Shown here: positions 37,785 through 48,599 of the stretch, piece after piece
How the letters are laid out: each line of letters opens with the position of its first letter
How positions within the stretch are numbered: the first letter of the stretch is position 1
Origin: Capsaspora owczarzaki ATCC 30864
Lineage: Eukaryota > Opisthokonta > Filasterea
Assembly: GCF_000151315.2 (NCBI RefSeq)
Contig: NW_011887295.1
Location: forward strand, 944,544-1,008,543
Reading direction: 5' to 3'
DNA length: 64,000 bases
Translations under genes and position numbers: made by a program
Notes under the pieces: generated by a model
Seen by the model: only the letters and a program-made list of their open reading frames with translations
What the model was told of the DNA's origin: nothing
Database searches by the model: none

Positions 37785-40700
37785 ATGACTGAGACTGAGA
37801 CGCGACAACCCGATCCGGCGCAGTGTGGACCCGCCCGTGCTCCCAGCGCGACCATGCCCACGATGGATGCCAGTGTGCCTGCTGTTGATGGCCTTGTTGG
37901 GCGGACGGCAGCAGCAGCACCAGCAGCGGCACCAGCAGCGGGTGTTTGCACCGCTACTTGTTCTTCTTCCGCGTCATCGTCCGCTTGCCATCAACCAGAT
38001 CCTGAGGTGCTGCCGGTGCCTGACTTGAGCAGCTGCACGACAGAGCCCGAGCCGACCGTGCTCGCAATGTGGTCTGCGTCGCGCAACCGAGCCGCACAGA
38101 CGCGCGCATTGGACTTTTTCGCAAAGTTGCTGTGCGCGACGACCTCGATCGAGTACTCTGCCGACACGGACCATCTGGGACTGCTCAACCACATTGCAAC
38201 GCATGCACAGACACAGCCGTACCTCAACCCGGTCGTCGCGCAGGAAGTCGCCGTCCGATCGTCCTTTGCCAATCCAGCCGTCGAGGCAGAGTTTGCCGGC
38301 TACCAAGGCAGCAGCAGCAGCCGGTGGATGGGACTCTCCTCCTCCGCAGCGTCAAGCTCATCCCGATCAGGCACTGCGTCAGTCGGAGGAGGACTCGGTC
38401 ACGCCGCTCGAGCTCATGCAGGTTCAGGCTCAGGTTCAGGAAACACACCCATGGCATTGTACGCTGAATCTGTCATTCGGGAATCCAACGAATTTGAGCG
38501 AACTTCCTCCGTGGTCGATCTGGCCAACATGGACGACGACGACGCTAGTTCGGACACAATGTCGAACGCAAGCGGACCGATCAGCTCGATGATGGATTCC
38601 ATGCACGCGGAAGAACGGCTGCCGCTCGCTCAACTGAATCGGTCAGCCATGGGCCAGGACGCGTCTCCTGCTGTTACTTCTGCTGCTGCTGCTGCTGCGG
38701 CTGCTGCGGTTGAGCACTACTTTCACCTCGACCTGGGCGACAGTCGTAGCTTCAACCCAACGCACATTGTACTGCACTTTCGCTTGGCGCTTGCACGCTC
38801 GGCCGATCCCGCCAAGCAGATGCTTGCGTTTGCGAAAACTCGAGCAACCCTGTCGGTTTTCGGCTCCAATGATGGAGTCGCGTGGGAACCGCTGTACGGC
38901 TCTGGTAAAAGTCAAGGTGGTGCCTCGCATCACCGTCCGACCAATCAATCGTCTGCGCGGGCTGGAGAGGCGACTGCCAAGGCGGACTCGGCGGCCTCCG
39001 AAGGCGTTGGAAGCAGCAGCACCGCACTATTTTCGCGACGCCTTGCATCACGTTTGTCGGGGGTTGCCAGACGCGACTCTGACACCAGAGTCGATCGCAA
39101 CACCAACAGCAGCAGCGGCACTATCAGTCCTGCATCTTCGCAAGCACTGTCACACGATGACGGCAATAGCACGTTGAGAATCCACACGTTCGAGTACTAC
39201 CGTCACTTTCGAGTGGTTGGCAACGCCGGCCTTCAATCGGCCTCGATCGAGCTCTTTGGCGAGTTGATGACTGTCTCTGCGCTTGCTCGCAAAGTGCAGG
39301 CCTTCCAACAACATCAGCAATTACCAGCATCATCATCATCTCCCAACTCGACTGGTGTGCGCCTTCCCGGACCGTTGCACTCTCTTCCTTCATTCGACGC
39401 GACTGCCACCCAAGAAAATGTCAGGGAAGCGTTGGATCATGATGTTGTTCATCATGTCGTCCAGCTTGCAAGCTCTCATCACGCCTCTGTGCGGCATGTA
39501 GCCGCACGCTTGCTTTTAGCCATGGGTGCACACGAATCTCTGTGCACGGCGATCGCAGAGCACTCTGATTTGCCACGCCTTTTAGATCTCGCCACCGCCT
39601 CAGCCTCGGCTGCCGACGATATTGTCCGGGCTGCTGCCATTCGGCTTGTTCTGCTTGTGTTTGGCACATCCGCGGCCGCGGCAGACCGTCTCATCCAGCT
39701 CGGGGCAGCTCCCTTCCTCGCGTACGCAGAAGTGGTGGGCTCGTGCTCCATCCTCAAGTACGCCTTGGCTCGACTTGATACCGCCGTTGTCCAGTCGCAT
39801 CTGGCGTCGCAATCGCGCGTGGCTTTGCTCATGAGCTCCATCCAAGGAAGCATCCAATTTTTCAGGCTCGATGCCATTGTGCTCATTCCCAAGCTCGTCC
39901 AGCTGGATCCGTCGTTTGCGCTGGAATTGATGAGCCACAACTTGATTCCATTCCTGGCAAGTCTGCTGTCGCCGCTCGCAATGCAGTTCCGGGACAACGC
40001 CAACGAAACGTCTGTTGCCGAGGCGACGTTGATTGCCATCCTTGACGCCTTCGTCGCGCTCGCTGCAGCGCAGCCCCAGGCGTGCATCCCACCCATTCAG
40101 GAGCACGCCGTGGCGCTTGGCATTATCTCTGCCGCATTGAACGACTGGTCTGTTGTTGAACGCTGTGTTGACATTTTAATGCTCTTGTCGGCAGACTCGG
40201 ACATTGAGGCGCTCTTTTCACGGTTTGATGCCGTGAACTTTTGCGACAACTCTGCTGGCGTCTCCCCTGCGCTGCGCGCTTCGCAAGTTGCCATGGCATT
40301 TACCGGTCTGATACACTGTGCTCTCTGCCATCCCGATCACGAGTATGCCGAGCGTGTGTGGAAGTTTATTCTCCCAAGTTCGGCGCTCGGCCTGCGCACA
40401 TCTTCGTCCGCTTCTTCTGATTCGTCTTCGACCTCTTCGTCGTCTTTCAGCCCCGCCCGGCTCGACACGGGCCCATTCTTGCGCGCGTGCTTGTACATGA
40501 TGTGCGAATCGCTTGGGCCGTGCTCGCCGCATATTGTGGCGAACGGAGTGTTTGCGCTGGCGGATCGGCTCGTCTCTGACCCCCACGCGTTGGCAGAACT
40601 CATCGTGCAGCTGGAAGGGCGCTCCCGGATACTACCGGCACTGCTGGCAAAGGGTCTTGCGTGTGTGGTCACCATCGAATCGCTTGCCCCGTGCATTGCC

Positions 40701-43700
40701 AGCTGCCTGGACATCCTCGATGTCACGCTTGCGTCTTGGGTGCCGTTCGCCCAGGCGTCTGTCGATGCCGACGCAGCTGTCAGCTCGGCCTTCCGATTCC
40801 TGCTCGCCGTCTTTTGGGCCACCTGTCAGTCAGCGCCCAAACTTGCGTTCCGTGCCTCCTGCATGGTCTGCACTATTGTGCGCGCCCTCACTGATGCGCA
40901 GTTGGAAGTGCTCGTCACTCAACCCTGGCTCGACCACGCGTCGTTCGGAAGTCGAGACGCTGTTGTCGCTCCTGCTGCTGCCCCTGCTGCTCCTGCTGCT
41001 GCTGCTGCACAACAAGAGAAGACCAGTTTTAGTGCGAAACTCGACAACCTTGCGTGGGCCATCATTGACTCTGCTGTCGTCGCTCTTCACATGGACTCCA
41101 CCGAAGGCCAGGAGGATGCCCGACCTGTCGATTTCAACCAGTCTATCATCACCAGCTCTGTCCGCCTTTGGCAAGCACTCTGCGCACGTGAATGCAAAGA
41201 TCCAACACTCCGCGCACAGCTGTACGAGACCGCCATGCAGACATTCAAGCAGCAATCAGCTGCGGGTCACATGCTTCGGCTGATTGAGCGACTCGACTGG
41301 CTCTCAAAGACAAAGCCGCTGTCCATCATGGATCACAGCCTGTTCCAGCCTCCAGATCTCACGTTTGACCTCCCTCCGCCGCCTTTCTCGCTCATCACGC
41401 CGCTCATCGTGTCCCGAGCTATGGGATTGACCATGCAAGTCATGATTCATGCGTCACGCAACAAGCATTTGGCGCCCGCCAAATCAGCGCCCCTTTCAGA
41501 GAATGATGATGCTCATCCTACTGCTGTCGACAAGGCCTCTTGCGCCGTATCGTGTCTTCTCGCGGTGATTGACAACCGGCAGCTTGAGATGTTTGTGGAG
41601 CGTGCCTATGACGCAGATCCCTTCACCGGTCGTCTCGCGCGAAAACTCCTCAGCGTCGCATCGCACCTCGTGACGCCCAAGCAACTTGCCTCGCTGCCCG
41701 CTTTTGGCTATGCCTGGGGCGCCCTTCACTACACGTCCTTCTTTGAAGGCACCCAGGCAGCCACCCAGAACCTCGCCGGGTTTATCCCTTCTGAAATCGC
41801 TCCCGTCTCGTCCGCTGTCGTTGTGAGCGGGCTTCCCGAGGCTGCTGGACCCATTTGTTTGCCGCGACCCAAAAAGACGCCTTCCTCAGAGGCACCGGAT
41901 AGTGATGGTCAGGCTTTGCAAGCCCCTCCCCAGCCACAGCCGCAACAACCAGACCCGACAAAGCCCGCCGTCCTCACCGATGTCCGTCGTCTGGTCGCCA
42001 TTCTCAGCCCATCGTCGCCCTTCTCGCACATTCGCTTCCGCCTCACGGCTGCCAATGCGCTGGCCAACTTGCTGACCGACTGCGTGCAATTGTCGTTTGA
42101 GCGCAACGACGATGGACAGGGTTTGTTTACCTGGATTGGCACAAAAGCTGGCCAGCTTCCCTACGCCAACCCGGTCATCACAGGCGAGGTCTTGGTCGAG
42201 GCATCCCCTGCTCTGCTAAACAGTGGCTCTGAGGCAGACTTTATCGCGCGCGAACCCGGGCCATTCTCGACTGCCGATCGCTCAGACTCGCTCGTCTACG
42301 TGGACGTCTCTGGAGGTTCACGGCAACGCGCAATCTGCCCAACCCACTATGCGCTCTGCGACACGGCGTCCTGGGAGCATGGCTCGTACGTCACCAACTG
42401 GGAGCTGCAAGGGCGAGTGGACAAGTCGCACCCGTGGCTCGTTCTTCGCAGACACATGGACGATCATACTTTGTGCCGACGAAATGCCACGCAGTCGTGG
42501 TTTATCCAAGGCAGCGCTGCGAAATCGCACCTGACTGGCGTTGTCGATCAGTACGGTGCTCCCCAGGCCGTCCCACACCAGCACACTCCACAACCACCGT
42601 CACAGCAGCAACCTGGGCTTTCTGGAGCCCAAACGATTCCGTTTTGCTCCGAGTTTCGAGTCGTCTGCACAGGACCGGGCACTGGTGGGCGGCGTACGTT
42701 GACTCTGGCCGGGTTTGAACTGTACGGGTTGGTGCGCGAAGGGCGTGGCGCCTCACCCGAGACCTTGGAGGCGCTGGCAAGCCAGTTTGTCGAGGCCGGT
42801 GGTGTCGAGCATGTCTCTCGATTGCTTTCGCAGAGCCAAAGCAGTCTCTGTGATGCTGAGGCGCGCGCGGGTCAACTGGCACCGGAATCTCGCGAAGAAA
42901 TTGCGGCGCACTTGGCCGCGTCCTTCTGGTCGATTGACAGTGGCACAAACGACACGGAACGCCTCCGACTCGCGTGCATTCGCATGCTTCAAGCCGTGTG
43001 CACAACCGTGGAGCGTGCCGCTCGCGTGGCTCGCGCCGTTCAACCTCTCCTGAACTGCCTGTGTGCCTCGGAATCCCTCTCGGTGCAAAACCAGACCAGC
43101 CTGCTGCTTGCCACGCTTTGCGAGTCGTTCATGGACTCTGTCGTGCTGAATCCAGAGACACGGCCGTTTGACGCCAAGGCTCTCGTGTCTGCACTGCTCA
43201 CGCTGGCAGCATCTGTCGGTCGTGTGGTGGCGTCGCGAGCCATCAGCATTATCGAGCTGCTCACGCGACATTTGCCAGAGTTTGGCTCTGCGTTGGCAGA
43301 AGCCGGGACGATTGATTTGCTGATTTCAGTGATCAAGGAAGAACGGACGCGCGGGACGCTGTTGGCCGGTCACCCGGCATGCATTGCTTTGTGCAACATG
43401 TGCGTGAACGAAGAGCTGCGTGTCCGCGTCTTGTACCATGGCAATGCGCACATTCTCACGGGAATTATGCTGAATGCACGTACCGAGCTGCAACGCTTGG
43501 TTCTTGCCATCATGTCGATTGCTGTCCCTCACGACGCGTCGGCACTGACGCAGGATGACAGCATGCTCCGCTGCGGGACAATGCGGGCGTCGTTCTTTGA
43601 GACGTTGCTTGCGAATGGCGCTCTCGCCGTCATTTGCGAGTATTACGAAGCGCACTCTAAATCGCCCGAATGGTCCAGGCGCGTCTCTGCGTACTTTGGT

Positions 43701-46700
43701 GATCTGCAACTGCCCGATGATTCCAACAACCTCATTGTGGCTCGGTTGATTGCACAGCTGACTCAGCATTTGACAGACCATCGGCAGCTGCTGCAGACGT
43801 CCGTGTTAAATGTTGTAGTCGCCTTGCTCGCAACCGCGGAAGTGGATGTTCGCTGTTTTGCCACAGCCGCGCTCTTTCATCTGACGCGCAATTCGGACTT
43901 TCAGGTCATTGTGGCGGCGCACGCTCCTTTGCGCGACATTCTGTCCCAGAGCGTTGACGCTGCGCTCGCTCGCCTTCCGGCGCCAGAGTCCTCCCCATCA
44001 ATCGACACCCAACGGTCAGCTCGTTTGGCCAGCGACGCCATCGCCCAGCCGACCGGGACGTTTGACTCAACCAAGGTCGAAGACCGTCTCATGCTCTGGA
44101 CGCTCCGCTGCTTTATTCGCCTCGCCCTCAACCTGATTCTTCTGGAAGGCTTTACTGCGAGTCGATTGCGGCAGCTCCTGACCGTGGCCACTGCCGGCGA
44201 TGAAACGTTGATTCAAGAAACAACGCAGTGTCTCAAGCTGATTGTCAAGAGCAGCGACAACCGATCGCTCTTGGTCGAGCACGGCTTCATCCCTTTGCTG
44301 CTCTCCATGGTGCACTCTGTTGACTTGCGCGCGTTTGCCGTTGAGACTCTTGATAGCTTTCTCCTGCACGGTCAGGATAATGACGCCAGTTGCATTGAGC
44401 TCCTCCTGCACGATGGCATTCCGGTGTTGACTCGGTTGCTCGAAGCGTATGCGACGCTGGACTTGTCGCGTGATGCTTCCGCCACATTCGTCCAGCGGGA
44501 GGTGAACGTTTTTGTTCACGCGTGTTCGATTTTGTGCAATTTGGCGTATCAACAGTGCACGGTCAAGCGACCTGACGATATGCAGAGCACAACCGTTGCG
44601 GCCCTTGTCCTCGCTCATCCACCCTGCCTGCCCGCCCTCATCTCGCTCGTCATGTCGCCATCGGTGCTTTTGCAGCGTGTGTCCATCAGAACTATCATGT
44701 ATTTGGCAATGTCATCGGAGGTGGTCACGGCGCTTGCTCGGACCGTCGACAGTGCTTGGCAAATCCAGCGCCGCCTTCTTGCGGCGACGGAAGTTTCACC
44801 CAGCGAGTCTACCCGCACTGTCGAGCCGGTAGCGCAAATGCAGTCGAAACTTGGCACGCGGGGACCAACGAAATCGACAAGAAAGGCCACCACGGGACCT
44901 GGAGCCGGCTCGCAGACGAAAGGCACTCTGGGAATCAGCATGCTTCCGTCGTTCGTTCAAGTGCTCTTCCACCTCTGTGCCTCTGCAGATGATGAGGTCA
45001 AGTATGCTGCCGTCCGCGTCCTTGGCACAATGCTGCCAATCATTGATTTTGGGGCGTCCGAGCAAGTCAGAATCCACCGCTTCCACGCCTTCGTGTCGCA
45101 CACCCTCAGCTTAATTGAAGCAAACCACGAATCGTCCACGCGCCTCAACTTGCTCCGCTGGATTCCGGTTTTGTTTCAGATTCTGGCCGACCCGGCGTTC
45201 TTGTCATCGACGGAGGCCTTCTTTACGGTCGTGATGCGCGTCGCCTCCAAGCACATCTTGGAAATGTGCCTCAGCTCGCCGCTCGTCGCAGTGCAGGCGA
45301 TTGCAATGGACATTTTGCTGGTGGTTGGTGTCAAGGTCAAGCAGCTTGCAGCCATCTATCTGAAGCGCAAGCAAGCGGCCAGTTTTGATACTGTGGGCCT
45401 CGGCGAGGTCGTCCAGCTGTTGCTTTCACCGCACGACAGTCTGCGAACCAAAGCGGCGCGAGTTCTTGCCACGCTGAGCGCATCGGCAGACCACGCCAAC
45501 CGCATCGCCACGGAAGGTGCCCTCGACCACTTGCTGGTGCTGCTTCGGCTCGCAACAAACACCGCACCAGCAGAGTACCATGAGCACCAACGTTATCTCG
45601 CTGAATGTGCCGAACATCCCGATGCTGGCGCAGCCCCTCAGGCTCTGCATCACGCAAGACTGGAAGCCTTGAACTTGAACGCTCTGCCGGCTGCCCCGTC
45701 GCCACTCCAGGCTGGAACTCGCGCGTCCGACCGCCCGTTGGAGACTGCATCGGCCCCACAACTCGGCCAGGTAGGAGTCGGCTCCCGTAGTGTCGTGTCG
45801 TCAGGCGCAGCGGCCGAGAGCCTGTGGCTCCGGCTTCCGCTGGGCTTTGCGATTGATGAAGAAATCATCCCGATCGTCTTGAAAACGCTGCGTCGGCTGA
45901 CGTCGCACAGCCACCTGGCCGAGCGGTACTCGCGGCGTTTGCGAGGCGATGACCTGTTGCCCATTGTCGTGCTGTCCAACGGAGCCAATCAGCAACTCAG
46001 CGCGCAAGCCAAGCGCATTTTGAGCAACCTGAACGTGAACGATGCAGAACAGCTCCTGGGTCTTGCTGCGTCGACAGATCCTGCCGCTCAGCTGAAGGCC
46101 TTGACTGGCCTCGCAGAGCTGTCCTTGCACCAAAGCAATCGCGTTCTCCTCGTCAACCGTGGTCTCCAGCCGTTGCTTACTCTTGTTGAAAAGTCTCCTT
46201 CGCGGTCCCTCATTGGCGCGGCGCTGGCCGTGTTGAACAATTTAGCCAGCGTTGCGAAATGTCAAGAAGAATTCCGGGCGCCGGCCTTTGTGCGCTTGCT
46301 CATCGGCTTGGTGGTTGAAGACAAACACACATGGCGAAGGCAGCAGAAGCGGAAGAGCAAACTCGCGAACGCCGCCGAGTCGTCCGACGGTCGTGCCGCC
46401 TTTTCCGCCGCTGCGAGTGACGACTCTGACGCCGATTCAGATGGCGAGGTGGAGGCGTCGACAAGTGTGCTTGAAACAGACGATTCGGATTGCGATGACT
46501 TGTCTGGCTCCATGGCAGCGGAAGAAGTCAACATCCGCCGGTGGGCTTGCTCCATTTTTGGGCAGCTCTGCTCCCAGAACGACATCTTTTGCATCGAACT
46601 GGTCGACCTTGGCGGCCTGGATGCTTTGAACGTGGCGCTGTACAGCAACAACCAGGCCATTCAGCTGGAGGCGGCGCGGACGCTGCGCTGCATCTCGACG

Positions 46701-48599
46701 TGCATGGAAACTCACTTTAACATTGCGGCCCACCCTGTCGTTCAGACCATGTTGATTATCAGCTACTTTTCCCGCGGTGTCCCGAGCGACGTGCATCGAC
46801 GACTCGGAGCCGCCTTGCGCAACTTGGGTACCGGCTGGGTCCCCACTGTTGTCAAGCGATGGACACCTGCAGACGTGCTTCTTTGGGTGCAGTGCATCGG
46901 ACTTGCCCAGTTCTTGCCCGTCTTTGCGGCAATGCGGGTGACGGATGGCGAATTGTACATTCCGCCTCATGCAGTGGCGAGCGTCGCCGCTGATGCAGCC
47001 GGTCGCGCCAACACAGCGCATCGTCGAAGCGCAAACGCAGCAATCGCTGCAGGCGGCGGCGGCAACCCCACCTTCACTCATGCTCATGCGCATTCTCATT
47101 CTCATTCTCATGCGCATGGTAACCATGCGCGCGCGCATTCTCATGGGCACAGTCGTCACTCCAGTACACGGCAGAGCTCGATTCTCTCGGGCAGGTCGGC
47201 CTCGCCAAGCAACGACCCGCAAGCCTCGCGCAGGTCGATCGTTTCAGATACCGGCAGCCTGGAAGGAGTGGCATCGGTGCTCGGCCGCCCGTCCATTTCC
47301 GCGTCAAACACTAGCGACCAGCATTCTTCTCGTCACCATGGTCATCACCGCCGTCACCACCATCACTCCCATCGTCGTCACCACACCGACCATCACGGGC
47401 AGTCTCAGCAAGGGCAAGCGTCAACGGCTCTGCTAAACGGGAGGGGCCTGCTCGCCGTGACGGACAACGACGCTGCCTCGATTGTGAACGGGTCTTTGCG
47501 CGACACGAGCCTTTTGGTTGAAGCCCTGCACCAGCTGCGTGCCGAGTCCCTCCTGGACGTGGTTGCGCGCGCTGAGGTGCAGCTCCGCCAGCGCGCTGCC
47601 GAATCCACCGTGGCTGAGACCGTGCAACCACCCAAGCAGCAGTGGGACATCTTTTTGAGCTACCGGCACTTGGATGGAGACTTTGCTCGGGCGCTTGAAG
47701 CCGACCTGAATGAGAGAGGCTTTAGCGTGTGGGTGGACAAGAACGACATCAGTGCAGGAAACGATTGGCGCTCGGACATTGCCAACGGAATTGACAACGC
47801 GCTGTGCGTTGTATTCTTGATGACGCCCGGGTCGGTCCAGTCCAAGTACTGCTTGGAGGAAGTTCACTACGCCTACGAGGCGGACAAGCCCATCTTCCCC
47901 GTTGTGTTTGTCGACGCGTACGAACACATGAAGGGCGCACTCAAGATGATGCTGAGCCGAATCCAGTGGATTGATTTTGAAAATATTCCCTATGAGACGA
48001 GCCTTCTCAATCTCATCGGTCAAGTGGATCGCATCAGACTCGAAGTGGGTCGCAACGCTGTTGACGAGGAGGCGGGCGAAAATGGGGCGCAAATTGCTTT
48101 GCCTACTTCCCAGGTGCCAGAAGACGCCGTTTCGACTCCGTCTCAGCTGCCAGAAGACGCTGGTTTGATCATGTCCCAGGTCGAATTGGTCTCGAGCGTG
48201 ACCAGTTCAGCGCTGCTACCTGATGGCCAGGCAGTCGCATCCACGCAGGTGGAGGCAGCCGCCGTGCACGCGTCGAGCACTTCCGTCTTGAATGCTTCTG
48301 AAACCGTCACGAGCTCTCGTACTCTGAGCTCTGGATCTCTGACGCAGTTGCCGGAAGAATCGGAAGCGCCCATACCTCGAGCGCACCCTCCCCTGACAAG
48401 TCAACCTTCCAGTGCAAGTCTTGGACGACGATCGGTCAAGCTGCAGTCTACTGCGCCCGTTTCTCAAACAAGCGACGATATCAATGCGCTGAAAGTGATG
48501 CTGCAACGCCAGCAGCAGCAAATGAGCAAGATGGAGGAGGTGCTGCAAATGCAGGCTTCGCTGCTGCTTCAGCTGACGCGAAGCAAGCAGACCATGTAA
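37785..48599 (+). CDS. Giant ARM-SAM-TIR protein (SARM1-like order) with two discoidin-like domains
   Basis: One uninterrupted exon of 3604 residues. A low-complexity N-terminus (about 1-300) precedes a galactose-binding, discoidin-like domain (about 310-495; HYFHLDLGDSR and FEYYRHFRVVGN). An armadillo/HEAT-like alpha solenoid (about 530-1420) and a second discoidin-like domain (about 1448-1652; FIQGSAAKSHL, FRVVCTGPGTGG, LAGFELYG), similar to those of BTBD9 and HECTD1, come next. More armadillo repeats run to about 3015. A SAM domain lies at about 3022-3065 (WTPADVLLWVQCIGLAQFL), then two histidine-rich linkers. The TIR domain is at 3287-3422 (WDIFLSYRHLDGDF, FSVWVDKNDISAGNDW, SKYCLEEVHYAY). 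E3359 aligns with the catalytic glutamate of SARM1 (E642), so NAD cleavage is possible. A short coiled coil ends the chain. ARM-SAM-TIR is the SARM1 order; the discoidin domains and size are not. No fusion or frameshift is visible. Confidence 0.9.
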   Translation: MTETETRQPDPAQCGPARAPSATMPTMDASVPAVDGLVGRTAAAAPAAAPAAGVCTATCSSSASSSACHQPDPEVLPVPDLSSCTTEPEPTVLAMWSASRNRAAQTRALDFFAKLLCATTSIEYSADTDHLGLLNHIATHAQTQPYLNPVVAQEVAVRSSFANPAVEAEFAGYQGSSSSRWMGLSSSAASSSSRSGTASVGGGLGHAARAHAGSGSGSGNTPMALYAESVIRESNEFERTSSVVDLANMDDDDASSDTMSNASGPISSMMDSMHAEERLPLAQLNRSAMGQDASPAVTSAAAAAAAAAVEHYFHLDLGDSRSFNPTHIVLHFRLALARSADPAKQMLAFAKTRATLSVFGSNDGVAWEPLYGSGKSQGGASHHRPTNQSSARAGEATAKADSAASEGVGSSSTALFSRRLASRLSGVARRDSDTRVDRNTNSSSGTISPASSQALSHDDGNSTLRIHTFEYYRHFRVVGNAGLQSASIELFGELMTVSALARKVQAFQQHQQLPASSSSPNSTGVRLPGPLHSLPSFDATATQENVREALDHDVVHHVVQLASSHHASVRHVAARLLLAMGAHESLCTAIAEHSDLPRLLDLATASASAADDIVRAAAIRLVLLVFGTSAAAADRLIQLGAAPFLAYAEVVGSCSILKYALARLDTAVVQSHLASQSRVALLMSSIQGSIQFFRLDAIVLIPKLVQLDPSFALELMSHNLIPFLASLLSPLAMQFRDNANETSVAEATLIAILDAFVALAAAQPQACIPPIQEHAVALGIISAALNDWSVVERCVDILMLLSADSDIEALFSRFDAVNFCDNSAGVSPALRASQVAMAFTGLIHCALCHPDHEYAERVWKFILPSSALGLRTSSSASSDSSSTSSSSFSPARLDTGPFLRACLYMMCESLGPCSPHIVANGVFALADRLVSDPHALAELIVQLEGRSRILPALLAKGLACVVTIESLAPCIASCLDILDVTLASWVPFAQASVDADAAVSSAFRFLLAVFWATCQSAPKLAFRASCMVCTIVRALTDAQLEVLVTQPWLDHASFGSRDAVVAPAAAPAAPAAAAAQQEKTSFSAKLDNLAWAIIDSAVVALHMDSTEGQEDARPVDFNQSIITSSVRLWQALCARECKDPTLRAQLYETAMQTFKQQSAAGHMLRLIERLDWLSKTKPLSIMDHSLFQPPDLTFDLPPPPFSLITPLIVSRAMGLTMQVMIHASRNKHLAPAKSAPLSENDDAHPTAVDKASCAVSCLLAVIDNRQLEMFVERAYDADPFTGRLARKLLSVASHLVTPKQLASLPAFGYAWGALHYTSFFEGTQAATQNLAGFIPSEIAPVSSAVVVSGLPEAAGPICLPRPKKTPSSEAPDSDGQALQAPPQPQPQQPDPTKPAVLTDVRRLVAILSPSSPFSHIRFRLTAANALANLLTDCVQLSFERNDDGQGLFTWIGTKAGQLPYANPVITGEVLVEASPALLNSGSEADFIAREPGPFSTADRSDSLVYVDVSGGSRQRAICPTHYALCDTASWEHGSYVTNWELQGRVDKSHPWLVLRRHMDDHTLCRRNATQSWFIQGSAAKSHLTGVVDQYGAPQAVPHQHTPQPPSQQQPGLSGAQTIPFCSEFRVVCTGPGTGGRRTLTLAGFELYGLVREGRGASPETLEALASQFVEAGGVEHVSRLLSQSQSSLCDAEARAGQLAPESREEIAAHLAASFWSIDSGTNDTERLRLACIRMLQAVCTTVERAARVARAVQPLLNCLCASESLSVQNQTSLLLATLCESFMDSVVLNPETRPFDAKALVSALLTLAASVGRVVASRAISIIELLTRHLPEFGSALAEAGTIDLLISVIKEERTRGTLLAGHPACIALCNMCVNEELRVRVLYHGNAHILTGIMLNARTELQRLVLAIMSIAVPHDASALTQDDSMLRCGTMRASFFETLLANGALAVICEYYEAHSKSPEWSRRVSAYFGDLQLPDDSNNLIVARLIAQLTQHLTDHRQLLQTSVLNVVVALLATAEVDVRCFATAALFHLTRNSDFQVIVAAHAPLRDILSQSVDAALARLPAPESSPSIDTQRSARLASDAIAQPTGTFDSTKVEDRLMLWTLRCFIRLALNLILLEGFTASRLRQLLTVATAGDETLIQETTQCLKLIVKSSDNRSLLVEHGFIPLLLSMVHSVDLRAFAVETLDSFLLHGQDNDASCIELLLHDGIPVLTRLLEAYATLDLSRDASATFVQREVNVFVHACSILCNLAYQQCTVKRPDDMQSTTVAALVLAHPPCLPALISLVMSPSVLLQRVSIRTIMYLAMSSEVVTALARTVDSAWQIQRRLLAATEVSPSESTRTVEPVAQMQSKLGTRGPTKSTRKATTGPGAGSQTKGTLGISMLPSFVQVLFHLCASADDEVKYAAVRVLGTMLPIIDFGASEQVRIHRFHAFVSHTLSLIEANHESSTRLNLLRWIPVLFQILADPAFLSSTEAFFTVVMRVASKHILEMCLSSPLVAVQAIAMDILLVVGVKVKQLAAIYLKRKQAASFDTVGLGEVVQLLLSPHDSLRTKAARVLATLSASADHANRIATEGALDHLLVLLRLATNTAPAEYHEHQRYLAECAEHPDAGAAPQALHHARLEALNLNALPAAPSPLQAGTRASDRPLETASAPQLGQVGVGSRSVVSSGAAAESLWLRLPLGFAIDEEIIPIVLKTLRRLTSHSHLAERYSRRLRGDDLLPIVVLSNGANQQLSAQAKRILSNLNVNDAEQLLGLAASTDPAAQLKALTGLAELSLHQSNRVLLVNRGLQPLLTLVEKSPSRSLIGAALAVLNNLASVAKCQEEFRAPAFVRLLIGLVVEDKHTWRRQQKRKSKLANAAESSDGRAAFSAAASDDSDADSDGEVEASTSVLETDDSDCDDLSGSMAAEEVNIRRWACSIFGQLCSQNDIFCIELVDLGGLDALNVALYSNNQAIQLEAARTLRCISTCMETHFNIAAHPVVQTMLIISYFSRGVPSDVHRRLGAALRNLGTGWVPTVVKRWTPADVLLWVQCIGLAQFLPVFAAMRVTDGELYIPPHAVASVAADAAGRANTAHRRSANAAIAAGGGGNPTFTHAHAHSHSHSHAHGNHARAHSHGHSRHSSTRQSSILSGRSASPSNDPQASRRSIVSDTGSLEGVASVLGRPSISASNTSDQHSSRHHGHHRRHHHHSHRRHHTDHHGQSQQGQASTALLNGRGLLAVTDNDAASIVNGSLRDTSLLVEALHQLRAESLLDVVARAEVQLRQRAAESTVAETVQPPKQQWDIFLSYRHLDGDFARALEADLNERGFSVWVDKNDISAGNDWRSDIANGIDNALCVVFLMTPGSVQSKYCLEEVHYAYEADKPIFPVVFVDAYEHMKGALKMMLSRIQWIDFENIPYETSLLNLIGQVDRIRLEVGRNAVDEEAGENGAQIALPTSQVPEDAVSTPSQLPEDAGLIMSQVELVSSVTSSALLPDGQAVASTQVEAAAVHASSTSVLNASETVTSSRTLSSGSLTQLPEESEAPIPRAHPPLTSQPSSASLGRRSVKLQSTAPVSQTSDDINALKVMLQRQQQQMSKMEEVLQMQASLLLQLTRSKQTM

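Follow-up and report, generated by a model that had tools for sequence, protein, structure and literature searches.

How did enzymatic TIR sensors come about near the base of the animals? On this open question bears a single, very long gene, CAOG_03102, of Capsaspora owczarzaki ATCC 30864. The gene lies in a stretch of 64,000 nucleotides (C4:944544-1008543, henceforth the window) of an assembly of 27.5 Mb in 29 contigs, which served for the genome searches. A preliminary description, drawn from the letters of the window, had seen there a giant SARM1-like protein in a unicellular relative of animals, and Capsaspora is just such an organism. Judging from its sequence, we give an even chance to the view that CAOG_03102 is a giant TIR enzyme that consumes nicotinamide adenine dinucleotide (NAD+), held by a scaffold and SARM1-like in its way of working; the protein is probably cytosolic. 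Comparison of sequences suggests that its TIR domain most likely comes from another lineage than SARM1, one shared with membrane TIR proteins of Capsaspora, and hence that the order armadillo (ARM), SAM, TIR may have been put together separately from SARM1. The frame itself and the two features that carry the enzymatic reading are the following:

37785..48599, forward strand: whole open frame, 3604 amino acids (aa), CAOG_03102 (3586 aa in the public model)
47640..48044, forward strand: TIR domain, residues 3286-3420 (TIR_2 E 4.2e-25, TIR E 1.8e-5)
47859..47861, forward strand: codon of E3359, putative catalytic glutamate (invariant in alignments A1, 7 rows, and A5, 18 rows)

The TIR domain announced in the preliminary description is there: the TIR_2 profile matches over its cut-off, and the structure model has a TIR fold, with ten-residue blocks at pLDDT (predicted local distance difference test) >= 87 from about residue 3290 onward. 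This model superposes at 1.4-2.2 Å on the TIR domains of TRR-2, SPARTA (2.1 Å) and SARM1 (2.2 Å), in a list from which a family that does not appear is not thereby excluded. E3359, likewise singled out at the outset as the residue in the catalytic position, has been kept. It is the fifth residue of Y3355-C-L-E-E, and in alignment A1 it shares a column with the glutamate of SARM1 WVHKE. In that alignment, human SARM1 included, S3292, L3308, D3318, G3325 and E3359 are kept in 7/7 rows, while S3292, Y3293, D3318 and E3359 are invariant in all 18 rows of A5. The bacterial-defence profiles that match the domain are those of TIR effectors: SAVED-TIR (2e-14), TIR-pAgo (3e-13) and ThsB (2e-8). SAVED-TIR is also the top match of the human SARM1 TIR, so that these matches support the type of enzyme, not the lineage. 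The TIR fold and the profile matches are thus held in common with bacterial effectors (SPARTA TIR-APAZ, TIR-SAVED, Cat1, Thoeris ThsB), which to our knowledge are short prokaryotic proteins lacking an ARM/SAM scaffold.

The remainder of the protein divides as follows:

38109..39299, forward strand: first discoidin-like (galactose-binding-like) module, residues 109-505, interrupted by low-complexity inserts (sub-threshold PF00754; repeat)
39357..41969, forward strand: first helical (armadillo-type) block, residues 525-1395 (Arm E 0.011 in residues 525-865)
42057..42749, forward strand: second discoidin-like module, residues 1425-1655 (N-terminal repeat of module 1)
42762..46844, forward strand: second armadillo block, residues 1660-3020
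46845..46964, forward strand: first half of a SAM-like domain, residues 3021-3060, W-x7-W-x2-CIGL pattern (SARM1 SAM likeness)
46965..47423, forward strand: His/Ser/Ala-rich low-complexity stretch, residues 3061-3213, two His tracts (pLDDT mostly <50)
47424..47570, forward strand: possible second SAM half, residues 3214-3262 (without sequence support)
48465..48596, forward strand: short heptad (coiled-coil-like) tail, residues 3561-3604 (heptad register count)

Armadillo before SAM-like half before TIR, the order first proposed, holds, the SAM being present as a half that stays under cut-off. It recalls the ARM-SAM-SAM-TIR NAD+ hydrolases, animal SARM1 and C. elegans TIR-1, to which CAOG_03102 is also alike in its catalytic glutamate and in the first half of SAM1. 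The differences from SARM1 are substantial: CAOG_03102 has 3604 aa against 724, the discoidin-like modules are extra, a second SAM half is not supported, and the TIR domain, 22% identical, lacks an insertion that SARM1 has and is grouped elsewhere in free trees. Two tandem SAMs over cut-off, as in SARM1, were not found, and the model has low confidence in that region.

In SARM1, the ARM domain restrains the TIR domain. By analogy, the armadillo scaffold of CAOG_03102, together with the two partly repeated discoidin-like modules, might keep TIR domains apart until a partner or a small molecule, a metabolite, binds the scaffold and releases them. TIR domains would then be brought together by the heptads at the C-terminus and by the SAM-like part, and the assembled TIR would cleave NAD+ or make a cyclic adenosine diphosphate ribose product, as a signal of death or stress.

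To which lineage does this TIR domain belong? Its identity in A1 reaches 46% with a EukProt protein (P0003) and 39% with a metagenomic one (P0004), then falls to 32% with a TIR-SAM protein (P0005) and 22% with human SARM1; the second TIRs of the other Capsaspora loci are 26% and 25% identical. Just before the glutamate helix, SARM1 has an insertion of eight columns (DKCMQDHDCKDW in human) that, on our reading of the human and C. elegans sequences, marks the SARM1 family; the remaining six rows, that of CAOG_03102 among them, have a gap there. When the Protein Data Bank (PDB) was searched with a profile free of SARM1, the bacterial Cat1 (8e-11) and 7uxr (1e-10), TLR15/2 and the plant Roq1 ranked above SARM1 (2e-8); a search with a profile that contained human SARM1 put SARM1 first and was discarded as circular. 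The TIR phylogeny was run with 40 rows and, after five long-branched rows had been dropped, with 35, two SARM1 rows and no choanoflagellate row being included. Both free trees set the TIR beside P0004, P0003 and the other TIRs of Capsaspora, apart from SARM1, which we take as a leaning, not as proof. In the Capsaspora genome the TIR_2 profile finds at least five places in three loci, and the TIR profile at least four, all of them among those five; the human SARM1 TIR has a single match there, in CAOG_03102 (E 0.0096).

Several points weigh against this interpretation. Where the WxxxE motif has W, CAOG_03102 has Y. The discoidin fold of both modules is, from the sequence, unproven, and the second half of the SAM lacks support, only about the first 37 residues being backed. 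In the trees, support for the group is 88/87 and 82/87, under the starred level. Forcing the TIR alone to join SARM1 costs 7.5 (40 rows) or 6.2 (35 rows) log units, and in the approximately unbiased (AU) test this sister relationship has p 0.30, not rejected, with 40 rows and p 0.041, barely rejected, with 35. Making SARM1 sister to the whole group (the CAOG_03102 TIR, P0003, P0004 and four Capsaspora membrane TIRs) costs 0.63 log units and is not rejected either (p 0.26). The tree tests not being firm, descent from SARM1 is disfavoured, not excluded.

A more specific version of the separate-lineage view, which we hold tentatively and with some doubt, is that of a filasterean NAD+ sensor of ARM-SAM-TIR type, built independently of animal SARM1 from a TIR stock also fused to class C G-protein-coupled receptor (GPCR)-like receptors. 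The two other loci concerned are:

C2:17500-27000, forward strand: L006, putative receptor gene with TIR locus C2:22406-23780 (profile matches, hydropathy)
C4:773500-783000, reverse strand: L007, putative receptor gene with TIR locus C4:777606-778522 (profile matches, hydropathy)

These loci have the S-x-Y-C-x-x-E motif in common with CAOG_03102, and are grouped with it in both trees; they differ from it in that their TIRs stand in tandem behind membrane segments and beta-helix-type repeats. In each, exons carry Chlam_PMP/beta-helix repeats (in L007 with best E-values of 2e-10 and 1e-9; in L006 with Chlam_PMP at 3e-4); membrane segments according to hydropathy follow, and then tandem TIRs bearing the glutamate. 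Just upstream of the TIRs, L007 resembles the end of a class C GPCR (7tm_3 E 0.0016, below cut-off), and 26 of the 28 PDB rows at that end are metabotropic glutamate receptors (best E 0.0045). Both thus look, from their sequences, like membrane receptors with tandem TIRs, L007 with a class C GPCR-like end. A GPCR-TIR-TIR fusion, if true, would be a striking receptor; a literature search on names for a GPCR-TIR fusion found no paper, and a paper devoted to the GPCRs of the relatives of animals (PMC12716839) does not contain 'TIR' in its main text. A TIR search limited to proteins of some 400-1260 aa gave three matches. In P0003 (EukProt g2282.t1, 489 aa), a TIR and a second, TIR-like part come after membrane segments, a layout similar to that of the Capsaspora membrane loci. 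P0005 (429 aa) has a TIR (TIR_2 E 3e-23) followed by a SAM, that is, the SARM1 order reversed, its SAM_2 score of 20.3 bits being just below the cut-off of 20.5.

Have we over-read the protein? It might be nothing more than an extended armadillo protein to whose end a TIR has been fused, in which discoidin-like modules and SAM were seen where there are none. We find this doubtful, and the evidence deserves to be followed along the chain. The armadillo part is common to both views. Over the whole protein the Arm profile scores 35.7 bits against a cut-off of 20.6 (E 7.8e-9), in five stretches. Of the two armadillo regions first described, the Arm profile thus sustains the armadillo assignment, while residues 866-1395 matched none of the Pfam families and the match in residues 525-865 is under cut-off. 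A duplication of one block into the other is not evident (score 67, shuffles 52 ± 7, maximum 72 in 40).

As for the discoidin-like modules, PF00754 is the sole Pfam match of module 1 freed of its inserts (E 0.038 and 0.062; 13.9-14.6 bits against a cut-off of 28.2). None of eight shuffles matched PF00754, but one of the eight did match an unrelated family (E 0.12), which puts the E-values of module 1 near noise. Module 2 had no match in Pfam, and none in the PDB when searched alone; a profile of the two modules gave a single PDB match (E 1.4), judged to be chance. The structure model of module 2 (mean pLDDT 32) failed and is unusable; the alignment of the module, A6, has three rows and is partly misaligned. 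The match below cut-off in module 1, the want of Pfam and credible PDB matches for module 2 and its failed model speak for over-reading, and so does the likeness between the modules in their C-terminal halves, which is weak or absent: against module 2, residues 309-378 score 26, the chance level, and residues 459-505 score 32, a value attained by 33/1000 shuffles. On the other side, the N-terminal part is a genuine internal repeat by its sequence: residues 109-180 align with module 2 at a score of 85 (shuffles 26.5 ± 4.2), and none of 1000 shuffles is as high. Searched in the genome, module 2 recovers module 1 at E 0.0075 and nothing else at E <= 0.1; over giant proteins it finds the CAOG_03102 record itself only. 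The motif pattern of the modules presumably fits galactose-binding-like domains. What remains of the original discoidin-like domains is therefore the internal repeat, PF00754 staying below cut-off in module 1 and absent from module 2. Their label as carbohydrate- or lipid-binding is without support; the fold is not established and no ligand can be named.

The SAM fared similarly. No SAM family passes its cut-off, be it with the whole protein or with three pieces of it; once inserts are removed, SAM_1 from Pfam gives E 0.09-0.14, still under cut-off, and this removal raised neither the SAM nor the discoidin match above threshold. Absence of SAM and F5/8C matches over cut-off, where TIR and Arm have them, counts in favour of the plain armadillo protein. 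Against it, residues 3021-3065 score 60 with the two human SARM1 SAMs (shuffles 21.0 ± 3.5), beating 1000/1000 shuffles, and the SAM domain initially proposed is upheld for about its first 37 residues. This likeness is to SAMs in general, because the human SARM1 SAM matches elsewhere in the Capsaspora genome (best E 2e-6) and nowhere in CAOG_03102 at E <= 1; in the PDB, too, an insert-free SAM query meets Liprin-beta-1 (E 0.018) ahead of SARM1 (E 0.13). The putative second half, tested as residues 3212-3265, scores 24 (shuffles 23.2 ± 3.9; 398/1000 as high). Structure prediction towards the C-terminus, confident for the TIR, is of low confidence here, with pLDDT about 44-51 over the first half and about 24-71 over residues 3214-3262. 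Between these halves, the His-rich part already noticed in the preliminary description is indeed present; its tracts hold 9 and 11 His per 20 residues, arise partly from a 12-base pair (bp) tandem repeat at 47077-47117, and could reflect metal binding or simple expansion. At the far end, a short coiled-coil part is plausible in the C-terminal heptad stretch from a register count, with 9/12 a/d positions hydrophobic in the best of seven registers.

Could CAOG_03102 instead be a true, much enlarged relative of SARM1, with ARM-SAM-TIR inherited from a holozoan ancestor and a TIR that has diverged? We think this unlikely, despite arguments that deserve attention. Searched with Foldseek, full-length SARM1 and TIR-1 chains occupy ranks 1-13 (best E 2e-8), with template modelling scores (TM-scores) of 0.15-0.19, and they rank so partly because those chains join ARM and TIR. 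When the whole protein is searched against the PDB by phmmer, SARM1 heads the list (E 2e-4), with the ARM end plus SAM and the TIR aligned in order; over the TIR stretch alone, SARM1 earns 11.0 bits against 19.7 for the bacterial 7uxr, and the TIR is nearer other lineages. The ARM-SAM junction aligns with that of SARM1 (ALRNLG / ALRLLG), residues 2960-3022 scoring 35 with 3/1000 shuffles as high, a score that is unspecific in that, among 65 further windows of 63 residues from the second armadillo block, one reached 38. The C-terminal armadillo block as a whole is not clearly above chance against the SARM1 ARM, the domain with the NMN/NAD+ sensing pocket (17/200 shuffles as high), and the human SARM1 ARM has no match in the Capsaspora genome at E <= 1. 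The AU tests, which do not firmly exclude the kinship, remain on its side, and so do the choanoflagellates, for which SARM1 homologues with the glutamate and proteins with Arm and TIR have been reported (Richter et al., 2018; PMC6040629). Those homologues, compared here by their description, are likewise glutamate-bearing TIRs of unicellular animal relatives; the passages on them in that paper speak neither of giant size nor of discoidin-like modules. With a TIR closer to EukProt, metagenomic and Capsaspora TIRs, the SARM1 insertion absent and the ARM unmatched, the initial claim of likeness to SARM1, taken as one of descent, is not upheld and is disfavoured. Finally, that the TIR is a non-enzymatic scaffold which recruits partners in a large adaptor, as in TLR/MyD88 signalling, is improbable in view of the kept glutamate, D3318 and SYR start, and of the TIR effector profiles that match it.

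The gene model needs a comment. One open frame of 3604 codons runs from 37785 to 48599, as first described; the chance of such a frame is about 1e-49 at its base composition, and the other five frames hold 54-117 stops each across the same interval. It coincides with CAOG_03102, apart from one omission in the record:

44502..44555, forward strand: 54 bp that the CAOG_03102 model splices out (GT..AG, in frame)

The public model is consequently 18 residues shorter, lacking residues 2240-2257. These bases have a coding score of 3.46, where the frame averages 3.21; 54-mers of four nearby stretches, which we assume to be non-coding, average -2.2, with 5.6% reaching 3.46. Since the 54 bp score like the remaining frame, the uninterrupted reading of 3604 aa is, on coding score, more likely than the annotated intron, and the in-frame intron call is a probable annotation error. 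The gene was originally called intronless: the public model does splice out 54 bp, yet these score as coding. A protein search with residues 1-3604 returned the CAOG_03102 record as its sole match; this search, like those with module 2 and the TIR, needs shared five-residue words, and absence elsewhere does not follow from it.

A literature search whose result lists were covered in part found no paper naming CAOG_03102. The protein is a variant of the known SARM1-type TIR layout, Arm with TIR and SARM1 homologues in relatives having already been reported. In a recent atlas of TIR domains, SARM1 falls into a clade ('clade 8') with few protist members, beside several uncharacterised eukaryotic clades whose TIR_2-type domains, like that of CAOG_03102, are near bacterial ones (Culbertson et al., 2026, preprint; PMC13142454); 'Capsaspora' does not occur in its main text. 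Another account describes Capsaspora as lacking an obvious Toll-like receptor (PMC9621439), yet its genome holds the CAOG_03102 TIR plus two membrane TIR loci. If CAOG_03102 is a SARM1, the layout already existed before filastereans parted from choanoflagellates and animals. If, by contrast, its TIR actively consumes NAD+ and belongs to a separate lineage, the SARM1 layout has arisen at least twice. Were independent assembly true, a single genome would combine TIRs of one family in receptors and in a cytosolic sensor, and this would make a circuit of TIR signalling in an organism that is neither animal, plant nor bacterium.
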